From positions 1 through 64,000 of IMG/VR virus record IMGVR_UViG_3300021185_003853: 64,000 nt of DNA, one strand, 5' to 3'. Each line of letters starts with the position of its first letter. Position 1 is the first letter of the stretch. The position numbers and the translations under genes are program-made. This DNA is from a virus. Shown one piece after another: positions 14,882 to 36,133 of this stretch. The notes beneath the pieces were generated by a model that saw only the letters and a list, made by a program, of their open reading frames with translations, was not told the origin of the DNA and ran no database searches.

Positions 14882-14957
14882 GGGCCCATAGCATAACGGT
14901 TAATGCATCCGACTCATAATCGGCAGACTCTTGGTTCAAATCCAAGTGGGCCCACCA
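14882..14957 (+). tRNA. tRNA with CAT anticodon, probably tRNA-Ile2 (AUA)
   Basis: Complete cloverleaf: acceptor GGGCCCA/TGGGCCC, D stem GCAT/ATGC, anticodon loop CTCATAA with CAT, T stem CTTGG/CCAAG with loop TTCAAAT, encoded CCA. The anticodon arm CGACTCATAATCG is the same as in E. coli ileX, which suggests a tRNA-Ile2 (lysidine-modified, reads AUA) rather than Met. The outermost anticodon-stem pair is T-C, a mismatch. It would help an AT-rich phage decode ATA. Confidence 0.88.
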
Positions 14958-15026
14958 GACTTTAGAGAACATAGCCTTGGACCGTTATGTCAGAATGACT
15001 GCGCTGTAAAGACAGTCCCGATTTAT

Positions 15027-15101
15027 TCCGAAGTAGCACAATGGTAGTGCATCTGACTGTTAATCAGAGGGTTGTTGGTTCGAGTCCAACCTTCGGAGCC
15101 A
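15027..15101 (+). tRNA. tRNA-Asn (GTT)
   Basis: Acceptor TCCGAAG/CTTCGGA, D arm with GGTAG, anticodon loop CTGTTAA (GTT), T arm GTTGG-TTCGAGT-CCAAC, discriminator G and encoded CCA. 69 bp after the first tRNA; the spacer holds a GACTG/CAGTC hairpin with a CTGTAAA loop sequence. Confidence 0.9.
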
Positions 15102-27993: not shown

Positions 27994-28290
27994 ATGGAAG
28001 AATTAGATATAGGAGCAATGATCTCACAGTACGGCTTTCCAATTATAGCCGCTGTTGGATTAGGATACTTCATATATTACATATGGAGTTGGGTTACTGA
28101 AGAAGTAGACCCAGTGATATCAGAGTCTCATATGACTCTCATAGCACTAATTGACAGAATAAGAATGTTAGATAATGATTTGATAAGACTGAGAACTAAA
28201 CTAGATATGATTTTACAGCAACAGGAAATGATGAAGAATGAAAAAGATAATAACTCTGATACTACTATCGATATCACTGACGAGTCATAG
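27994..28290 (+). CDS. Small membrane protein, 98 aa (holin/UviB-like layout, copy 2)
   Basis: Paralogue of the preceding gene: N-terminal membrane helix after MEELDIGAMISQYGFP, then a coiled-coil-like region (LIALIDRIRMLDNDLIRLR) and a polar tail. Overlaps the csgF-like gene by 53 bp in another frame. Either holin-like, or inner-membrane parts of the secretion system; the sequence does not decide. Confidence 0.65.
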   Translation: MEELDIGAMISQYGFPIIAAVGLGYFIYYIWSWVTEEVDPVISESHMTLIALIDRIRMLDNDLIRLRTKLDMILQQQEMMKNEKDNNSDTTIDITDES

Positions 28291-28732
28291 TAGCGAAATA
28301 ACTTTCGGATTCAAAAGCCCATCATTTAGTGGTGTTGGCACTGGTTCGCATTATCTTACGATTGAGAACCAAGAACATAGTCGAAAGAAATCAATCGAAG
28401 ATGCACTCGAAGCGGCTCGTAAAGCGGCTGAAAGAGAAGCAGAAAACACCACACTCGCTAAGTTCATTCGTAACCTAGAGAGTCGTATCTATTCACAGTT
28501 GTCAAAGCAACTTGTGGACAATATGTTTAGTAACGAAGATGCAGTCACATTCGGGTCATTTACACTTGAAGGGTCTACAGTTGCCTATCAGGTTATGACG
28601 AATGATGCAGGCGAAGATTATATCGAGATGAGAATTGTAGATACAGAAGGTTCAGAAACTATTATTGAAATACCAATTGGTACTGGTAACTTTGGTTCAA
28701 TAGATAGCGGGGAAGATGATGTTGCGTTTTAG
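28238..28732 (+). CDS. csgF: CsgF-like curli assembly protein
   Basis: 164 residues. Sec signal peptide (KKIITLILLSISLTSHSS), then EITFGFKSPSFSGVGTGSHY, which matches the N-terminus of mature CsgF (TMTFQFRNPNFGGNPNNG), the segment that binds in the CsgG channel. The middle is a charged helix (KKSIEDALEAARKAAEREAE) longer than in E. coli CsgF; the end has beta strands (EDYIEMRIVDTEGSETIIEI) like the CsgF C-terminal domain and finishes VAF. E. coli CsgF is 138 aa. It would be surface-exposed, coupling curlin secretion with nucleation. Directly followed by csgG. Confidence 0.85.
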   Translation: MKKIITLILLSISLTSHSSEITFGFKSPSFSGVGTGSHYLTIENQEHSRKKSIEDALEAARKAAEREAENTTLAKFIRNLESRIYSQLSKQLVDNMFSNEDAVTFGSFTLEGSTVAYQVMTNDAGEDYIEMRIVDTEGSETIIEIPIGTGNFGSIDSGEDDVAF

Positions 28733-29621
28733 TTTACTACTAGCGGTATCTATTATCACTGGGTGCGCTCAGATTCCAAAATGGTCTGAGAATCCACAGG
28801 ATTGCTCACATCTGAAAAATGCTAGGGACTATATCTGTGTAGACGAACCAGAAGTGGTTGATATGCCCGCATATGTAAAATTACTTGAAGTTCCACCTGC
28901 TACCAAAATGCCAGTTGTAGCAGTATATGGATTCAGAGACTTAACAGGTCAAAGAAAGAATAGAGACGGAATTGCAGATTTTAGTACTGCTGTCACACAA
29001 GGCGGTACTGAAATGCTAATAGATGCACTCAAAACAGCAGGGAAAGGGACTTGGTTTCGTGTTGTGGAGAGACAGGGTATCGACAATCTAGTAAGAGAAA
29101 GACAGATTGTTAGATCAACCCGAAAAGAATACGCTGACGAAAAATCTCAAGGGTTAGGACCTTTGTTATTTGCAGGTATGATTATCGAAGGCGGTATAAT
29201 TGGTTATGATACAAATCTTCAATCAGGTGGTAGAGGTGCTAGAGCATTAGGTATTGCGCTTTCAAGGCAATATCGTAAAGATGTCGTGACTGTTTCTGTG
29301 AGGGCTGTCTCAGTCCTGACAGGAGAAGTTCTGCTCAATGTTCAAGCAAAGAAGAGTATTCTTAGTTATGGGTCGGGTGGTGATTTATTCCGATTCTACG
29401 AAGAAGGAACTAAGCTAGTTGAATATGAAGATGGTGTGGGAAATAATGAGTCAGTGACTTATGCGGTACGGACAGCCATTGAGGCAGCCGTGCTTGAACT
29501 AATATATCAGGGACATGATAGAAGTCTCTGGTCAGTAGGTGAAGGTCATCGTCATCCTCATTTGAATGATGGAACGAATGATGGTCATAGCCTAGAAGAA
29601 GAGGTAAAGGAAGATGAATAG
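28716..29621 (+). CDS. csgG: CsgG-like outer-membrane curli secretion channel
   Basis: 301 residues, near E. coli CsgG (277). Lipoprotein signal with lipobox SIITGC (Cys17). Family motifs: VVAVYGFRDLTGQRKN, TQGGTEMLIDALKTAG, WFRVVERQGIDNLVRERQIV, LGPLLFAGMIIEGGIIGYD, VTVSVRAVSVLTGEVLLNV and SVTYAVRTAIEAAVLELI. CsgG forms a nonameric channel for unfolded curlins in the outer membrane. The 25 C-terminal residues are His/Asp/Glu-rich (HRHPHLNDGTNDGHS), unlike E. coli. Overlaps csgF by 17 bp and the curlin gene by 8 bp. Confidence 0.92.
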   Translation: MMLRFSLLLAVSIITGCAQIPKWSENPQDCSHLKNARDYICVDEPEVVDMPAYVKLLEVPPATKMPVVAVYGFRDLTGQRKNRDGIADFSTAVTQGGTEMLIDALKTAGKGTWFRVVERQGIDNLVRERQIVRSTRKEYADEKSQGLGPLLFAGMIIEGGIIGYDTNLQSGGRGARALGIALSRQYRKDVVTVSVRAVSVLTGEVLLNVQAKKSILSYGSGGDLFRFYEEGTKLVEYEDGVGNNESVTYAVRTAIEAAVLELIYQGHDRSLWSVGEGHRHPHLNDGTNDGHSLEEEVKEDE

Positions 29622-30339
29622 GTACTTAATAGGACTAGTAGCATTGCTTTCTAGTTTCGTTTATGCTGGCGCATCTGATGATAACGAAATCAACATCGAA
29701 CAATCTGGTGATACATTTACATTGTATATCGATCAGGTAGGTTATGGTAACAAAGTAGGACTTGATAATTTTGAAACATCGTCAAGTGCTTCGCCTATAA
29801 CTGGTTCATCGTTGAATTTCGATATTGATCAAATTGGTAACGAGAACTTATTGTTCGGTGAAGTAACTGCCGATAGTTCAACTTACAATCTGATCTGGAC
29901 TGGTGATTCTAACTCATGGGATTGGATGATTGGCGATGTAGGTTCTGCTGATTCGACAAACATTGATGTTAGCATAACTGGTGACTCCAACACAATGGAT
30001 TTTGATCAGGGTTCTGTAGCAAGTGCAGAAAGACTTGATCTTGATTTAACTGTGATTGGCAGTAGCAATGTATTTGATGTAGATGTTGAAACAGATGATG
30101 TAACATTCACAGTTGATGTTACTGGTGATGGCAACAACATCAATACACTACAGAACGATGGATTCTACCAAACATTAACTCTTGACCTAACTGGAGACAA
30201 TGCTGATGTTGATATTAATCAACTTAGTGGTACTTGTCCACAGGGTGTTACTAGTTGTAAAGGTATAATTACATTAGATGTTACTTCTGAAAATGCTACT
30301 ATCCAGATTAACCAGAAAGATAACGCAGGCGACAGTTAA
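29614..30339 (+). CDS. Curlin-repeat protein (CsgA/CsgB-like), copy 1
   Basis: 241 residues with signal peptide (YLIGLVALLSSFVYAGA). The mature part has about eight degenerate curlin-type repeats of 20-30 residues with the pattern beta-[QT]-G-x-x-N-x(5)-Q: NEINIEQSGDTFTLYIDQVG, FDIDQIGNENLLFG, DVSITGDSNTMDFDQG, TVDVTGDGNNINTLQND, LDLTGDNADVDINQL. Very acidic (many Asp), unlike E. coli CsgA. Two Cys near the end (TCPQGVTSC) may form a disulfide. Probable secretion substrate of the CsgG homologue, able to form surface amyloid-like fibre. Confidence 0.82.
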   Translation: MNRYLIGLVALLSSFVYAGASDDNEINIEQSGDTFTLYIDQVGYGNKVGLDNFETSSSASPITGSSLNFDIDQIGNENLLFGEVTADSSTYNLIWTGDSNSWDWMIGDVGSADSTNIDVSITGDSNTMDFDQGSVASAERLDLDLTVIGSSNVFDVDVETDDVTFTVDVTGDGNNINTLQNDGFYQTLTLDLTGDNADVDINQLSGTCPQGVTSCKGIITLDVTSENATIQINQKDNAGDS

Positions 30340-31435
30340 TGCATTGCTACTAGTGGGAGTTGCCGCTCAAGGCGCTTCCATTGGTGGTATTGTAGAGTCA
30401 ACTGGAGTCGGTTCTCTTGAACGAGAGACATCAGATACAGTAGTTGCGACTGTGGGCGAGGAGATTCAACTCAACGATACCGCTCAAACTGCAAAAGGTA
30501 GAATGCTAATCAAGTTCCTTGATGAGGCAGAACTATCTCTAATCGAACATACCAAAGTCTATATCGACAAAGTTTACTACGACCCGGATCCCTCCAAATC
30601 CAAAATGGTCATGAAGATGGCTTTAGGCACCGCTAGGTTTGCCTCTGGGCGTCTTGGAATGGTGAACAAATCAAATATAGACATATCAACACCAACGGCA
30701 ACGATTGCTGTTCGTGGCACAGATTTCACAACGACTATTGATGAACTTGGTAGATCATTAGTCATTCTATTACCAGATGAAAATGGTGACCCGTCTGGTG
30801 AGATCATCGTATCAAACGAAGCGGGTTCAGTGACACTCACTGAAGCATATGCCGCAACAATGGTTTCGAGTGTATCAACAATGCCTACTCAAAAAGTAAT
30901 CATAAATAACATCACGCCTGCGCTTATAGACAATATGTTTATCGTCAACGCACCACAAGAGGTAAGACAGGCAATTGAAGAGCAGATTCAAGAAGACGAT
31001 AATTTGGACATGGGTTCATTAGATGCTGACTTCCTAGAGTTTGATGAGTTAGAAAAGGATTTTGATGACTATGCAGGTGGAGAAGTTTACACCAGATTAG
31101 ATTATGATTTTCTAGGGTCTAATCTATTAACTGACTTGCTTGATGTGATCGATGAATTAATCCGCACAATGGCACAACTCGAAGATGTACAAGAGGGAGC
31201 AGGTAATACAGCAATACGACTGACTGGTGCTAAATGGGGATTCAATGATGATAGTCAGTACGCCATATTTGAAGAAGATGGTGGTATCGTATTTCATCGT
31301 GATGTTAGAGGTGTTATCAGTTTGAAGTTTGCTAAAGGTGGAGCAATAACTGTAGTGACAGAAGTCGAAGGTTATGTAGGCGAAATCACTGCTGACGGCG
31401 GAGAAGACATCAACGTCTTTATTAAACAGGATTAA
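30293..31435 (+). CDS. FecR-domain exported protein
   Basis: 380 residues from ATG 30293 (an in-frame ATG 30278 adds five). Basic start and hydrophobic stretch (ATVNALLLVGVAAQGAS) make a signal peptide. Residues 25-175 are a FecR domain: VATVGEEIQLNDTAQTAKGR, AELSLIEHTKVYID, MALGTARFASGRLG, IDISTPTATIAVRGTDFTTTID. The rest is acidic and unassigned (DADFLEFDELEKDFDDYAGG). FecR-domain proteins are signalling or periplasmic proteins and often lie next to CHASE2-cyclases in bacteria, as here. Overlaps the first curlin gene. Confidence 0.82.
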   Translation: MLLSRLTRKITQATVNALLLVGVAAQGASIGGIVESTGVGSLERETSDTVVATVGEEIQLNDTAQTAKGRMLIKFLDEAELSLIEHTKVYIDKVYYDPDPSKSKMVMKMALGTARFASGRLGMVNKSNIDISTPTATIAVRGTDFTTTIDELGRSLVILLPDENGDPSGEIIVSNEAGSVTLTEAYAATMVSSVSTMPTQKVIINNITPALIDNMFIVNAPQEVRQAIEEQIQEDDNLDMGSLDADFLEFDELEKDFDDYAGGEVYTRLDYDFLGSNLLTDLLDVIDELIRTMAQLEDVQEGAGNTAIRLTGAKWGFNDDSQYAIFEEDGGIVFHRDVRGVISLKFAKGGAITVVTEVEGYVGEITADGGEDINVFIKQD

Positions 31436-31436
31436 T

Positions 31437-32150
31437 ATGAAGGACATAGAAGAATACTTGTTATACGTTATTACTCCAATTCTTTTATTGGTGTATATGT
31501 TTGCCTCGGGTAAAGCAAAAGCAGACAACGAAATCTTTATCGATCAATCAGGCAATAACTTTGCGATTGGTGTTGAACAAATAGGCGCTAACAACAACGC
31601 AACAGTCAACGCTGATGGAACAACTCAACAACTACTTATTGTTCAATATAATGACACTACAGTAGATAATGATGTAACAGTCAATACTACAGGTGCTGAC
31701 AATGGTATCAAACTATGTCAAGGGTGTGCCTTTGATTATCCAGAAAGTTACACCAATCACGACTATTGGTACGATAACCTGGAAGGTGGCGGTCACTCAA
31801 TCGATGTGACTGTTACTGGAGATAGAAATGGTATCTCTGCTCAACAAACAAATCAAGGCAGTACAAACGGTCACAGTTACGATCTAAATTTAACTGGAGA
31901 CGATAACGAAGTTACGACCATTCAACAGCACGATGGTGTTAAGACTATAGACCTTACAATCTACAATGATGACAACGATGTGTTTGTTCGTCAGAAAGGG
32001 GCAGGTTCAACTCATACTGCTACGATAGAACTTGACGGCACATATGGCACTGACCTGACACTCAAACAATTCAATTCAACAGCAACTTACTCACTCACGC
32101 AAAATTGTGTCACTGTTGGTGGTTGCTCTATCTCGGTGACTCAACAATGA
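31437..32150 (+). CDS. Curlin-repeat protein (CsgA/CsgB-like), copy 2
   Basis: 237 residues. N-terminal signal or anchor helix (YLLYVITPILLLVYMFASG) after an unusual acidic MKDIEE start, then KAKADNEIFIDQSGNNFAIG and VEQIGANNNATVN, which open like curlin 1. Repeats: VTVTGDRNGISAQQTNQG, LNLTGDDNEVTTIQQHDG, LTIYNDDNDVFVRQKGAG, ending SLTQNCVTVGGCSISVTQQ. A Cys pair (KLCQGCAF) and a final Cys pair are present. It could be the nucleator (CsgB role) if copy 1 is the major subunit; the order cannot be decided. Overlaps the cyclase gene (ATGA). Confidence 0.82.
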   Translation: MKDIEEYLLYVITPILLLVYMFASGKAKADNEIFIDQSGNNFAIGVEQIGANNNATVNADGTTQQLLIVQYNDTTVDNDVTVNTTGADNGIKLCQGCAFDYPESYTNHDYWYDNLEGGGHSIDVTVTGDRNGISAQQTNQGSTNGHSYDLNLTGDDNEVTTIQQHDGVKTIDLTIYNDDNDVFVRQKGAGSTHTATIELDGTYGTDLTLKQFNSTATYSLTQNCVTVGGCSISVTQQ

Positions 32151-34174
32151 CAAAGTGGTGGTCAGTTCTTCCAATTATTTTCATATTTTGTGCATTAAAA
32201 GTCACAGAATCCTACTTTGTAAAATCGATAGAATATACATACTACGACCAGTTGCAACGTGGCCATCAAACTACTAAAGTGAATGACATTGTACTGGTAA
32301 ACATAGATGAAAATGCAATTAAAAAGGAAGGACAATACCCTTGGCCAAGACAGACAGTCGCCAAATACATAAACAATGCACCGATCAACTCACTGCTAGT
32401 CTCCACTATGATCTGGTCAGAGCCAGATCGCTTTGCAGGGGACAAGGAACTATCAAGATCCCTAAGTCAAAAAGCATTGGTATTAGCAAGCGCCCCTACT
32501 CGCCAAACTACTACAACTGAGTTAGGGATATATGCCAATGTTTCGACATTCGGCAAACCGACAAGTACGCTGATTAACTACAGTGGGTTATTGACACCCA
32601 TACAAGATCTCGCACAATATGCAATGGGAGTCGGCGCTGTGTCTGCTGAAGTCGATCAACCTTCAGGCGTTCTACGTAGAGTCCCATTAATCGTTAGCAT
32701 TAATGGACAACCTTATCCTTCATTAGGACTTGATACTGTTCGTGTATTTTTAGGTGAACCATCATATACTATTAAGAACAATGAACTCGGAGTGGAGTGG
32801 ATTCGTTTAGGTAAACAAGATCCTATTACAACCCAACCGACATCTGAACTGCCTGTTGCATTCTGGCATGACTTCGAACAGATATCTATTCTTGATCCAA
32901 TGCCTGAGGGTAAGGTATTGATCTTCGGGGTGACTGCAGAAGGATATTCGAATCCTGTTCCGACACCAACAGGTCCTATGTATCCTCATGAGATTCAAGC
33001 ACAACAAATCTACACGCTGATGTCTGGTGTCGAGATACTACGACCCGACTATACAAGATTCCTCGAACTATTGATGATCCTTATTGCTTGTACGGGCATA
33101 CTAATCGCAGTTTATCGCTTGGGTACGATTGGTGCGTGTATCACAAGCATTGCATTGTTGGGTGCATCACCAGCGATAGGATATTATGCATGGACAAATA
33201 GTTACTTCTTCCTTGATATTATCTGGCCAACAGTTGCCGGGGTGGTCGTATTCGCACAAAGTTCATTCAACAAATACTACACGACTTACAAACTCAAAGA
33301 ACAAATCAAGAAACAATTTGGGACATACTTATCTCCTGCTATGGTGCAAAAATTACAAGATGATCCGTCATTGTTAAGGTTGGGTGGTGAGACAAGAAAT
33401 ATGACATTCCTGTTCTGTGACATTCGTGGATTCACTCCAATATCAGAACAATACAAAACAAACCCACAAGGATTGACGGAACTCGTCAATCGATTCCTGA
33501 CACCGATGACAGACATTATTATGGACAACGAAGGAACCATTGATAAGTACATGGGTGACTGCATTATGGCGTTTTGGAATGCCCCCTTAGACGTGCAGTA
33601 TCAGGAGTATATGGCGGTTAAAACGAGTGTAGAGATGTATCAGCACCTTGACATACTCAACGCAGAACTCGAAAGCGAAGGGTTATTGCCCATTAATATC
33701 GGTGTTGGTATCAATACAGGTGAAGTTGTTGTGGGTAATATGGGGTCAAATCAACGCTTTGATTACTCTGTATTGGGTGATGCTGTAAACCTAGCGGCAC
33801 GATTAGAAGGACAAACAAAGTCATATGGTGTCAAAACACTTATAGGTGAGGACACTAAAACACAGCTCAACGAACAATACTTTACTCTTGAGTTAGATAA
33901 TCTTGCTGTTAAGGGTAAGACAGAACCTGTTAAGATATACACTGTATTGACTGAAGCAATAGATGTTGAGATAGAAATGCATGAAGAGATGATGAGAGCA
34001 TATTACGCAAAACAATTCGATCAAGCGATAGCATTCTGTGAGGATCTAAAGAGATGCTTCAAAGGTGAAATTGCTGATTATTACAGAATGTGGCAAGACA
34101 GATGTAGGTCGCTAGAAAACACTCTAGACAAGGGTGAAGCGTGGGACGGCGTGTATCGAGCAACATCTAAATAA
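32147..34174 (+). CDS. CHASE2-domain class III adenylate/guanylate cyclase
   Basis: 675 residues. TM1 at 5-20 (LPIIFIFCALKVTESYF), periplasmic CHASE2 sensor to about residue 300 (YYDQLQRGHQ, IVLVNIDENAIKKEGQYPWP, GKVLIFGVTAEG), three membrane helices (305-385), then a class III cyclase: FLFCDIRGFTPIS with metal Asp425, IDKYMGDCIMAFW with Asp471, NIGVGINTGEVVVGN, and the transition-state motif LGDAVNLAARLEG (Asn and Arg). All catalytic positions look intact. C-terminal helical tail may be TPR-like. It would make cAMP (or cGMP) inside the infected cell in response to an envelope signal. ATG 32147 chosen for its overlap with the curlin stop. Confidence 0.9.
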   Translation: MTKWWSVLPIIFIFCALKVTESYFVKSIEYTYYDQLQRGHQTTKVNDIVLVNIDENAIKKEGQYPWPRQTVAKYINNAPINSLLVSTMIWSEPDRFAGDKELSRSLSQKALVLASAPTRQTTTTELGIYANVSTFGKPTSTLINYSGLLTPIQDLAQYAMGVGAVSAEVDQPSGVLRRVPLIVSINGQPYPSLGLDTVRVFLGEPSYTIKNNELGVEWIRLGKQDPITTQPTSELPVAFWHDFEQISILDPMPEGKVLIFGVTAEGYSNPVPTPTGPMYPHEIQAQQIYTLMSGVEILRPDYTRFLELLMILIACTGILIAVYRLGTIGACITSIALLGASPAIGYYAWTNSYFFLDIIWPTVAGVVVFAQSSFNKYYTTYKLKEQIKKQFGTYLSPAMVQKLQDDPSLLRLGGETRNMTFLFCDIRGFTPISEQYKTNPQGLTELVNRFLTPMTDIIMDNEGTIDKYMGDCIMAFWNAPLDVQYQEYMAVKTSVEMYQHLDILNAELESEGLLPINIGVGINTGEVVVGNMGSNQRFDYSVLGDAVNLAARLEGQTKSYGVKTLIGEDTKTQLNEQYFTLELDNLAVKGKTEPVKIYTVLTEAIDVEIEMHEEMMRAYYAKQFDQAIAFCEDLKRCFKGEIADYYRMWQDRCRSLENTLDKGEAWDGVYRATSK

Positions 34175-34177
34175 CAC

Positions 34178-34234
34178 GACAAATATGACATATTGTACTT
34201 GAATTAAGGCATTACATGACAAATATGACGTATT
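34178..34234. repeat. Two direct repeats of a 17-bp dyad element
   Basis: GACAAATATGACATATT (34178-34194) and GACAAATATGACGTATT (34218-34234), one mismatch, 40 bp apart. Each contains the imperfect dyad AATATGACRTATT. They lie just upstream of the 34254 promoter and are operator candidates. Confidence 0.6.
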
Positions 34235-34253: not shown

Positions 34254-34282
34254 TTGACATATACCTCAATTTGATGTATAAT
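34254..34282 (+). promoter_or_regulatory. Sigma70-like promoter of the lysis/bilin operon
   Basis: TTGACA 34254-34259, TATAAT 34277-34282, 17 bp spacer. Drives 34312-36133, three overlapping genes. Confidence 0.85.
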
Positions 34283-34311: not shown

Positions 34312-34902
34312 ATGAAATCTAAGTTGAAAGCTGCGCAGTTGATTATCGGTATTCTAGCGTTATTATTTATCTCTATTATTGTATTGATGTATCCTGTTAA
34401 ACACAATCAAGAGTTTTATGCTATTGAACAGGTTACAGTGCCTGAACAAAGCAAGCATCTTACACTTGATAATATTGAATGTATGGCACTAAACATCTAC
34501 CATGAATCACGAAATCAAACTCTAGGCGGACGACTTGCCGTAGGTTATGTTACTTTAAATCGTGTTAAGAGTAATAAGTATCCTGACACTATTTGCGGTG
34601 TCGTGAAACAAGCAAAAATAAACAAATGGTTCCTCGAAAGACACAACAAAAAAGTTCCCTCTAGAAACAAGTGTCAATTTTCTTGGTATTGCGATGGTAA
34701 GTCAGATCAACCATTAGAATCAAACGCATGGGAGGAAGCATATCTACTTGCTATCCATGTTATAAATATGTACGATACTATATCAGATCCCACAAAAGGT
34801 TCGATCATGTATCACAGCAATAAAGTGAAACCTTACTGGACAGATGCTTATAAACATCTTGTCACAATTGATGACCACATTTTTTATGGGAGTGTGAAAT
34901 GA
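34312..34902 (+). CDS. SleB-type cell wall hydrolase with N-terminal membrane helix
   Basis: 196 residues. An uncleaved-looking hydrophobic segment (LIIGILALLFISIIVLMYPV) then a Hydrolase_2 (SleB-like) domain: IECMALNIYHESRNQTLGG with the catalytic Glu, AVGYVTLNRVKS, CQFSWYCDG, IMYHSNKVKPYW. Such enzymes cut peptidoglycan. The N-terminal helix makes it a candidate signal-anchor-type endolysin or a periplasmic enzyme exported by Sec. A surprise is its operon: the next two genes are bilin biosynthesis genes in tight overlap. The promoter is of the early type, which is unusual for a lysis enzyme. Confidence 0.87.
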   Translation: MKSKLKAAQLIIGILALLFISIIVLMYPVKHNQEFYAIEQVTVPEQSKHLTLDNIECMALNIYHESRNQTLGGRLAVGYVTLNRVKSNKYPDTICGVVKQAKINKWFLERHNKKVPSRNKCQFSWYCDGKSDQPLESNAWEEAYLLAIHVINMYDTISDPTKGSIMYHSNKVKPYWTDAYKHLVTIDDHIFYGSVK

Positions 34903-35450
34903 GTTTAAAAGAGTTAACTTGGGAAAATCACAAGTCGGCAGAACGCAAAAAGTTTGCTAGTATTCTAATGAGTGGTGATATAGATCCCTTGTTATATTAC
35001 AGATTTTTATGTAATCAATACTACATGTATATCATGTTAGAAGAAAATTTAAGAATGGCAGGATTCCCACCTAAGTTATGGGACATATTCAGAGCGCCAA
35101 AAATCCTTGAGGATATGGTCGAACTACAAGACGAATATGGATTCATATTTAAACCAAAAGCAGTATATCCACTCACACACAAATACTCGGCACACGTTGA
35201 GACATTGTTCCGTGAAAGACGATACGATGATTTGATTGCTCATATGTATGTTCGTCACTTTGGTGATATGTACGGCGGTGCGATGATTGCTAAGAAGGTT
35301 CCGGGTTCAGGTAAGATGTATGAGTTCGAGAACAAAGAAGAATTAAAAGTGCATCTACGTGAAATGCTTAACGATGATATGGGACCTGAAGCAAATGTAT
35401 GTTTCGAGTACGCAATTGCATTGTTTGAGGAGTTAGGCAAGGAATCATGA
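34899..35450 (+). CDS. Haem oxygenase
   Basis: 183 residues. Opens haem to biliverdin, Fe2+ and CO. Motifs: proximal His in LTWENHKSAERKKF (His11), and the distal helix HMYVRHFGDMYGGAMIAKK with the Gly-Asp pair (122-123) corresponding to HO-1 GD in YLGDLSGG. ATGA overlap with the hydrolase gene and with the next gene. Cyanophages carry ho1; here its partner is a PcyA-family bilin reductase, matching the phage HO/PcyX pair described from ocean viral metagenomes (recalled, not checked). Confidence 0.9.
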   Translation: MSLKELTWENHKSAERKKFASILMSGDIDPLLYYRFLCNQYYMYIMLEENLRMAGFPPKLWDIFRAPKILEDMVELQDEYGFIFKPKAVYPLTHKYSAHVETLFRERRYDDLIAHMYVRHFGDMYGGAMIAKKVPGSGKMYEFENKEELKVHLREMLNDDMGPEANVCFEYAIALFEELGKES

Positions 35451-36133
35451 GTTATGTTTGGGATTCGTTAGTCGATCTGCAGAATCATTTTATTGAGACA
35501 TTTGACTCAGTAGCAAAAGAATACAAAGAGTCAGGCATGGAACGATACAACCATGAAGGTTGGATTAATCGTGTATGGAGCAATGATGACTTTAGACGAG
35601 CGCATGTTGATGTTGTCGATGCCCGTGAGGAGAAAGGATTGTGGATGATGCATGTATGCGTATTCCCGCATCTAAGTTCAAACGCTCCTATCTATGGGTT
35701 TGATGTGATTGCTGGACATAAGTTGATGACTGGTGCATTTCATGACTATAGTCCTACAACACAAAAAGATCACCCAATGATTGATTATTTCAATGAACAG
35801 GTTGAACCCTTACAATGGAAACGTGAACGTGATTTGCCGCCTTGGGCGAAAGCAATCTTTAGTGACAAGATGATGGCGGCAAGTGCTGTTAAAGAGCATT
35901 CAGAGATCGATCAAGTTGTATCGACAGCAAAGAATACACTTGATTACTTTGTAAATAATGTGGGACAGTATAATCAAACTTCGAGGCGTAACCCGGTTGT
36001 GTTTGCTCAAAACAACTATGCGCATCACCAAAAACAAAATCCTCACACTCCCCGAGTGATGAAGACCCTAGGATTAAATTCAGACGATGTTGATTCGTTT
36101 ATTAAGAAGTGTTTGTTTCCAGAAGTGAAGTGA
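35447..36133 (+). CDS. pcyX: Ferredoxin-dependent bilin reductase, probable PcyX type
   Basis: 228 residues. Reduces biliverdin, the product of the adjacent haem oxygenase, to a phycobilin. Motifs aligned by eye to PcyA: RRAHVDVVDA (Asp55 at PcyA Glu76), WMMHVCVFPHLSSNAPIYG (His69 at PcyA His88), GFDVIAGHKLMTGAFHDYSP (Asp100 at PcyA Asp105). C-terminal SFIKKCLFPEVK also resembles the family end. The phage enzyme PcyX is reported to make phycoerythrobilin; this one may do so but the product cannot be read from sequence. No phycobiliprotein gene is visible. Confidence 0.85.
   Translation: MSYVWDSLVDLQNHFIETFDSVAKEYKESGMERYNHEGWINRVWSNDDFRRAHVDVVDAREEKGLWMMHVCVFPHLSSNAPIYGFDVIAGHKLMTGAFHDYSPTTQKDHPMIDYFNEQVEPLQWKRERDLPPWAKAIFSDKMMAASAVKEHSEIDQVVSTAKNTLDYFVNNVGQYNQTSRRNPVVFAQNNYAHHQKQNPHTPRVMKTLGLNSDDVDSFIKKCLFPEVK

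Follow-up and report, generated by a model that had tools for sequence, protein, structure and literature searches.

A CHASE2 receptor cyclase closing a phage curli operon and its proposed coupling to curli assembly through a FecR protein

The curli operon and its receptor cyclase

The DNA analysed here, referred to as the window, is a 64,000-nucleotide part of a 114,312-base IMG/VR virus record. T4-like genes were found in the record, namely those for a gp59-type helicase loader, baseplate and tail families, and a terminase. The window contains a curli operon with the gene order CsgF-CsgG-curlin-FecR-curlin-cyclase. Its genes lie on one strand with overlaps or short gaps, and the cyclase gene is the last. 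The operon and the parts of its proteins are listed below.

28238..28732 (+): csgF, curli chaperone, the first recognised gene of the operon (Pfam CsgF, E 5.8e-15)
28716..29621 (+): csgG, curli outer-membrane pore (Pfam CsgG, E 9.3e-52)
29614..30339 (+): first curlin-like subunit gene (IxIxQxGxxN repeats; position conserved across phage operons)
30278..31435 (+): FecR-domain protein with signal peptide, FecR domain, acidic flexible linker and C-terminal beta domain (Pfam FecR, E 3.8e-7; AF2)
31217..31432 (+): C-terminal beta domain of the FecR protein, final strand DINVFIKQD (pLDDT about 88; shared terminal motif)
31437..32150 (+): second curlin-like subunit gene, terminus SISVTQQ (overlaps the cyclase gene by ATGA)
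32147..34174 (+): CHASE2 receptor class IIIb cyclase, 675 aa (ORF, Pfam, catalytic residues, AF2)
32156..32206 (+): first transmembrane helix, residues 4-20 (hydropathy and AF2)
32204..33091 (+): CHASE2 periplasmic sensor, residues 20-315 by Pfam limits (E 2.6e-30)
33053..33319 (+): three transmembrane helices, residues 303-324, 327-352 and 359-391, the last running on as a signalling helix (AF2)
33392..33943 (+): class III cyclase catalytic domain, residues 416-599, with D425, K467, D471, S541, N548 and R552 (Pfam Guanylate_cyc, E 1.5e-19)
33962..34171 (+): C-terminal helical tail, residues 606-675 (alignment and AF2)

Neither curlin gene gave a Pfam match at E 1e-3. Both encode curlin-type IxVxQxGxxN repeats, and HMMs built from the two genes recovered both of them throughout the phage set. 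The stop codon of the second curlin gene (TGA, 32148-32150) overlaps the cyclase start codon (ATG at 32147). A preliminary description of this DNA had proposed this ATGA coupling, a FecR/CHASE2 pairing within the operon and a link to curli assembly, and the present analysis supports all three. Two short membrane proteins were read by eye upstream of csgF.

Directly downstream of the curli module, at 34899-36133, the window encodes a heme oxygenase and a ferredoxin-dependent bilin reductase, whose nearest phage relative is in Pelagibacter phage Mosig (47%). A gene for a cell-wall hydrolase at 34312 stands between the cyclase and the heme oxygenase. These three genes are preceded by a perfect TTGACA-17-TATAAT promoter at 34254-34282, and just before it the sequence GACAAATATGACRTATT occurs twice, at 34178 and 34218. 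Further perfect copies of the promoter with the same spacing are located at 1305 and 20034. The T4 late-promoter core TATAAATA was found at 13 sites in the window (e.g., 34761 and 45324) against 5.0 expected by chance. Genes for tRNA-Met and tRNA-Asn are present at 14882-15101.

The cyclase is encoded by a single 675-aa frame without an internal stop, in which both Pfam domains, the CHASE2 sensor and the catalytic domain, were recognised. The predicted structure is confident (mean pLDDT 86.7), and hydropathy and AF2 agree on four hydrophobic helices, one before the CHASE2 domain and three after it, which is the architecture of CHASE2 receptors. The periplasmic sensor and four membrane helices described previously were thus found again. 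In the structure search, the catalytic domain matched CyaB and CyaC with Z about 27 at 1.7-1.8 Å (for 3r5g, Z 26.8 at 1.7 Å over 188 residues), which corresponds to the class III fold. The listed matches were taken up by the cyclase domain, and no solved structure related to CHASE2 was among them. Both metal residues (D425 and D471) and both transition-state residues (N548 and R552) are present, as the preliminary description had stated. It had also called for an alignment on ATP/GTP selectivity. This analysis revealed that the base-binding residues K467 and S541 align with the Lys/Thr pairs of CyaC and CyaB, and that the guanylyl cyclase Cya2 has Glu at the place aligned with K467. A Lys plus Thr/Ser base pair is characteristic of class IIIb cyclases of the ATP type, and by its Lys/Ser pair the window enzyme is predicted to belong to this class and to use ATP. 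The head is strongly constrained (pN 0.12 and pS 0.86 against the related locus L002). The WDGV..ATSK end of the C-terminal tail also occurs in bacterial CHASE2 cyclases and is absent from the cyclase of phage HTVC008M in the alignment. Judged from its sequence, the protein is an intact class III receptor cyclase with a predicted complete active site. Its product would be a cyclic nucleotide, most likely cAMP made from ATP.

The FecR protein and its relation to the CHASE2 sensor

In the AF2 model of the FecR protein, which was built without rows from public phage records, a signal-peptide helix is followed by a FecR domain (residues 30-190). An acidic linker, which is disordered, leads from there to a C-terminal beta domain that is modelled with confidence. 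A structure search covering mostly residues 26-214 matched the FecR domain to the cell-surface signalling domain of PupR (6ovk; Z 15.6, 2.4 Å over 136 residues), the structure of which was solved in a complex. The Pfam scan of the protein found PF04773 alone and no anti-sigma domain, and the N terminus is modelled as the signal-peptide helix.

The FecR protein ends in a motif of the form [hydrophobic]x[hydrophobic]x[Q/H] followed by 0-3 residues. It was found in 182 of 188 FecR proteins of the phage-operon type (97%) and in 138 of the 151 curlins that follow FecR, against 1.5% of 1371 other ORFs. The motif is carried by both FecR proteins from the Caulobacteraceae curli operons described below, and it was absent from the FecR proteins read near bacterial CHASE2 cyclases outside curli operons, which were few (L095, L104, L106, L126 and L140). 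A clear curlin homology of the whole C-terminal domain was not established by profile comparison, as the match to a curlin profile was weak (hhalign E 0.003, but a probability of 10%).

The covariation of the sensor with its neighbours was determined for 101 non-redundant loci as correlations of distances after removal of the CsgF, CsgG and first-curlin signal. The CHASE2 domain tracked the N-terminal domain of FecR (partial r 0.43) as closely as its own transmembrane segment (0.44); these are moderate correlations between distance matrices of related sequences, so the p-values are only indicative. The values were lower for the C-terminal part of FecR (0.11), for the catalytic head of the same protein (0.13) and for the curlin encoded between FecR and the cyclase (-0.04). 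Upon subsampling, the FecR N-terminal domain exceeded the C-terminal part by 0.19 (range 0.11-0.27) and the head by 0.24 (range 0.14-0.34). The covariation held when equal numbers of columns were used, and also in the Ser/Asn-type, Asp/Ser-type and near-window subsets taken separately. In the Ser/Asn-type and near-window subsets, the correlation with the FecR linker equals or exceeds that with the FecR domain. The FecR protein taken as a whole followed CHASE2 no more closely than it followed the catalytic head, and a closer fit to CHASE2 was seen only for its N-terminal domain. Gene neighbourhood alone was tested as the source of the covariation and found no support, because the intervening curlin does not covary in spite of a split-half signal of 0.65. 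The pattern is expected from a physical or functional pairing of FecR and CHASE2, and not from gene order alone. We take it to suggest that the two domains are paired physically or functionally; it is not proof of contact.

Occurrence, catalytic heads and spread of the operon

In the preliminary description, full receptor cyclases were regarded as rare in phages. The scan of viral contigs contradicted this view, as it yielded at least 599 stretches, all encoding relatives of the cyclase. A cyclase annotated as adenylate/guanylyl cyclase closes a curli operon also in the cultured phages HTVC008M (SAR11) and Melnitz (OM43). Of 136 distinct phage loci with 5.5 kb or more of upstream sequence, 131 have the order CsgF-CsgG-Cur-FecR(-Cur)-cyclase, and in four none of these upstream genes was recognised. 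As the loci were collected by taking the best matches to given queries, these counts are not population frequencies. Some relatives are encoded on very large phage contigs of 328 kb (L275), 236 kb (L293) and 204 kb (L398). Curli genes in pelagimyophages were reported in 2020 (PMC7029224), and in 2022 phage curli modules that include FecR and adenylate cyclase were described and found to be widespread in the ocean (PMC9599517). The window enzyme is an additional member of this published module, and its gene type is common in marine phages.

The catalytic heads of the phage proteins are of two types. D471 and K467 were present in all 240 phage proteins, and D425 and R552 in 239 of them. At positions 541 and 548, the intact type has Ser or Thr with Asn, as in the window protein and HTVC008M. 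The second type has Asp with Ser and has lost the transition-state Asn; it was found in 63 of the 240 proteins, including that of Melnitz, and is over-sampled because Melnitz served as a query. Asp/Ser heads keep both metal Asp residues, the Lys and the Arg, and are still strongly constrained (pN about 0.06, pS about 0.6-0.7). They occur in several sensor lineages (L083, L240-L242, L305 and others). In a single protein (L056), D425 is replaced by Tyr and one metal Asp is lost, which may be a sequencing error.

Trees built separately from the sensor and from the catalytic domain disagree. The Asp/Ser head requires one change on the catalytic tree and 10 on the sensor tree, some of which may be due to tree error; with shuffled labels, the mean on the sensor tree was 18.5 and the least 14. 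Individual proteins show the same discordance. L240 shares 54% of its CHASE2 domain with the window and 84% of its head with Melnitz, and L360 and L327 have 95% of the head in common and 36% of the sensor. Sliding identity placed the break at about residues 385-410, at the junction of the last transmembrane/signalling helix and the head. The hybrid of the L240 type recurs in three contigs (L240-L242) whose IMG/VR sample numbers differ, and this makes a chimeric assembly less likely. These comparisons indicate that catalytic heads are swapped between phages.

The phylogeny proposed earlier for finding a bacterial donor gave an unexpected result. The phage cyclases group in a single clade (support 1.0) within a background of alphaproteobacterial CHASE2 cyclases, and bacterial operons of the same type were found only nested within phage clades. 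The operon CsgF-CsgG-Cur-Cur-FecR-cyclase is encoded in two related MAGs (L086:5983-12040 and L218:2442-8462), both from one bacterial family, which the record title of L086 gives as Caulobacteraceae. The operon stands in different neighbourhoods of ordinary bacterial genes, which include a glycosyltransferase, an S9 peptidase and a TonB receptor, and a metallophosphatase and TetR. The MAG CsgG and FecR fall inside a phage clade with support 1.0 and CsgF with 0.97. The CHASE2 domains lie inside it as well, and the catalytic heads sit elsewhere within the phage clade. FecR and the cyclase were absent from more than twenty other alphaproteobacterial curli operons in the stretches examined. The Caulobacteraceae operon was rejected as the bacterial donor, since the trees nest it inside phage clades. 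The trees are most simply explained by a putative transfer of the operon from phage to bacterium, with the bacterial sampling thin and MAG binning errors possible.

Proposed role and comparison with known systems

We know of no function for phage curli modules. The reading that we prefer, with a probability of about 0.5, is that the cyclase is a sensor of curli assembly and that FecR, as an adaptor with two faces, connects it with the export or assembly of curli. Its basis, as read from sequence and structure prediction, is the layout of the receptor and its intact active site, the conservation of the operon, the covariation of FecR with CHASE2, the swapping of heads and the common C-terminal strand. 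In this reading, the curli module of the phage would signal through the cyclase. FecR would be exported to the periplasm, where its FecR domain, a cell-surface signalling fold, would pair with the CHASE2 sensor and its curlin-like C-terminal strand would tie it to curli subunits or to fibre assembly. Altered curli export or assembly would then alter the contact of FecR with CHASE2, and the signal would cross the membrane helices to the class IIIb head, which would form a cyclic nucleotide (most probably cAMP, made from ATP). Like the contacts of FecR with CHASE2 and with curlin, the sign of the regulation and cAMP as the product are inferred from evidence that is comparative throughout.

Another possibility is that CHASE2 senses a small ligand, an ion or envelope stress by itself, with the curli linkage reflecting co-expression only and FecR being a separate curli accessory. 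No CHASE2 ligands are known, and many alphaproteobacterial CHASE2 cyclases have no curli genes nearby, which would fit such a sensor. We nevertheless consider it unlikely, because the sensor covaries with the FecR domain beyond the operon background and skips the intervening gene, and because the operon is near-invariant.

The preliminary description suggested that the cyclase may set host cAMP through CRP-type regulation. For the SAR11 family, this suggestion is not supported by the host genomes. The family was taken from a SAR11 genome picked by exact match to what we take to be the sequence of the SAR11-441R 16S probe, and it was the only host family tested. Among its 117 genomes, 112 were without a cNMP-binding domain (PF00027) and 114 without a class III cyclase (PF00211), and a CRP-type HTH was found in one of the five genomes having PF00027. 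PF00027 was also absent from six phage records (the present 114-kb record, HTVC008M, Melnitz and three more), of which the present one and some others are possibly incomplete. The CRP model thus has no known receptor in SAR11, and the SAR11 phage HTVC008M nevertheless has the same operon and cyclase. An increase of host cAMP by the enzyme during infection, with host transcription rewired via a CRP-type regulator, is accordingly a doubtful explanation, despite the ATP use predicted by K467 and S541 and the CHASE2 cyclases of S. meliloti, which act through the CRP-family regulator Clr (PMC13001267). The host of the window phage could have a CRP. The phage has a GC content of 39%, and its terminase (L228:8510-10123; 108510-110123 in the record) is nearest to those of Sinorhizobium T4-like phages (59%) and not to those of pelagiphages, so the host may not be SAR11.

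In marine alphaproteobacteria (L104:6055-13246 and also L106), a CHASE2 cyclase gene is flanked by genes for cNMP-binding proteins. One of these proteins is fused to an HlyD membrane-fusion domain, a type 1 secretion ABC transporter is encoded next to them, and an RTX-FecR protein about 8 kb away. Direct control of secretion by cAMP is possible in this arrangement.

It is improbable that some phages retain the protein for binding and not for signalling, as a receptor with weak catalysis or none. The 63 cyclases in which Ser replaces the transition-state Asn and the base position is occupied by Asp, together with the one carrying D425Y, would agree with this, but the window protein has every catalytic residue, and the Ser heads retain the remaining ones under the strong constraint described above. 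The suggestion that FecR is an iron (ferric citrate) regulator and the module iron-responsive (PMC9599517) is very improbable in spite of the PupR-like fold. Only the periplasmic FecR domain is present, behind a signal-peptide helix; as the Pfam scan gave no anti-sigma domain, the protein does not fit a FecI/FecR iron regulator. FecR-domain proteins also accompany CHASE2 receptors in a biofilm operon that has no iron genes (PMC5192318).

The curli-assembly sensor can be extended to a fuller picture, which we put forward tentatively and with the odds somewhat against it. Phages would have evolved a self-contained sensor of fibre assembly, in which a curlin-tailed FecR couples curli export to a CHASE2 receptor with cartridge-like heads. 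It would work in SAR11 hosts with almost no cyclic-nucleotide receptors, so that some effector must exist, and the operon would have passed from phages to freshwater Caulobacteraceae chromosomes. A second-messenger receptor co-evolving with a fibre-linked FecR suggests that infected cells monitor fibre assembly, and it points to a not yet identified cyclic-nucleotide effector in streamlined marine bacteria. The exchange of heads offers a natural experiment on the modularity of receptor cyclases, and the FecR-CHASE2 coupling is directly testable in E. coli.

Among characterised enzymes, CyaB of P. aeruginosa and CyaC of Spirulina platensis are class IIIb cyclases that resemble the window head in fold and in the Lys plus Thr/Ser base pair, but have other sensor domains and an identity of about 35%. 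In Burkholderia, a FecR protein and a CHASE2 kinase are encoded in one biofilm operon, where the gene of a periplasmic LysM-FecR protein stands beside that of the CHASE2 receptor as in the window; the output there is a histidine kinase, and the FecR protein carries LysM (PMC5192318). The S. meliloti cyclases CyaD1, CyaD2 and CyaK are CHASE2 receptors that are fed from an outer-membrane protein, as their signal is received through NsrA (PMC13001267). That system differs from the window in being host-encoded, in having Clr as the effector and in being without a curli link. Cultured phages encode cyclases that likewise combine CHASE2 with a class III domain at the end of a curli operon. The HTVC008M cyclase (KC465899) is 37.6% identical to the window protein and differs in the absence of the C-terminal tail, and the Melnitz cyclase (MZ577097) is 33.5% identical and differs in its Ser-type head. 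The pelagiphage T8SS module has the gene order CsgF, CsgG, CsgA/B, FecR, second CsgA/B and AC, which is that of the window, and the podophage modules of the same study are preceded by a histidine kinase (PMC9599517). Bacterial T8SS operons were stated there to be without FecR and AC inside (PMC9599517), and the two Caulobacteraceae operons are exceptions to this statement. The text of that study makes no mention of CHASE2, head swapping, Ser-type heads, the C-terminal strand common to FecR and curlins, or operons of the phage type in bacterial contigs. What is new here is the wiring of the module, that is, a sensor that goes with the FecR domain, heads that are exchanged and a FecR protein with a curlin-like end, together with the lack of an identified effector in SAR11 and the putative spread of the operon to bacterial chromosomes.
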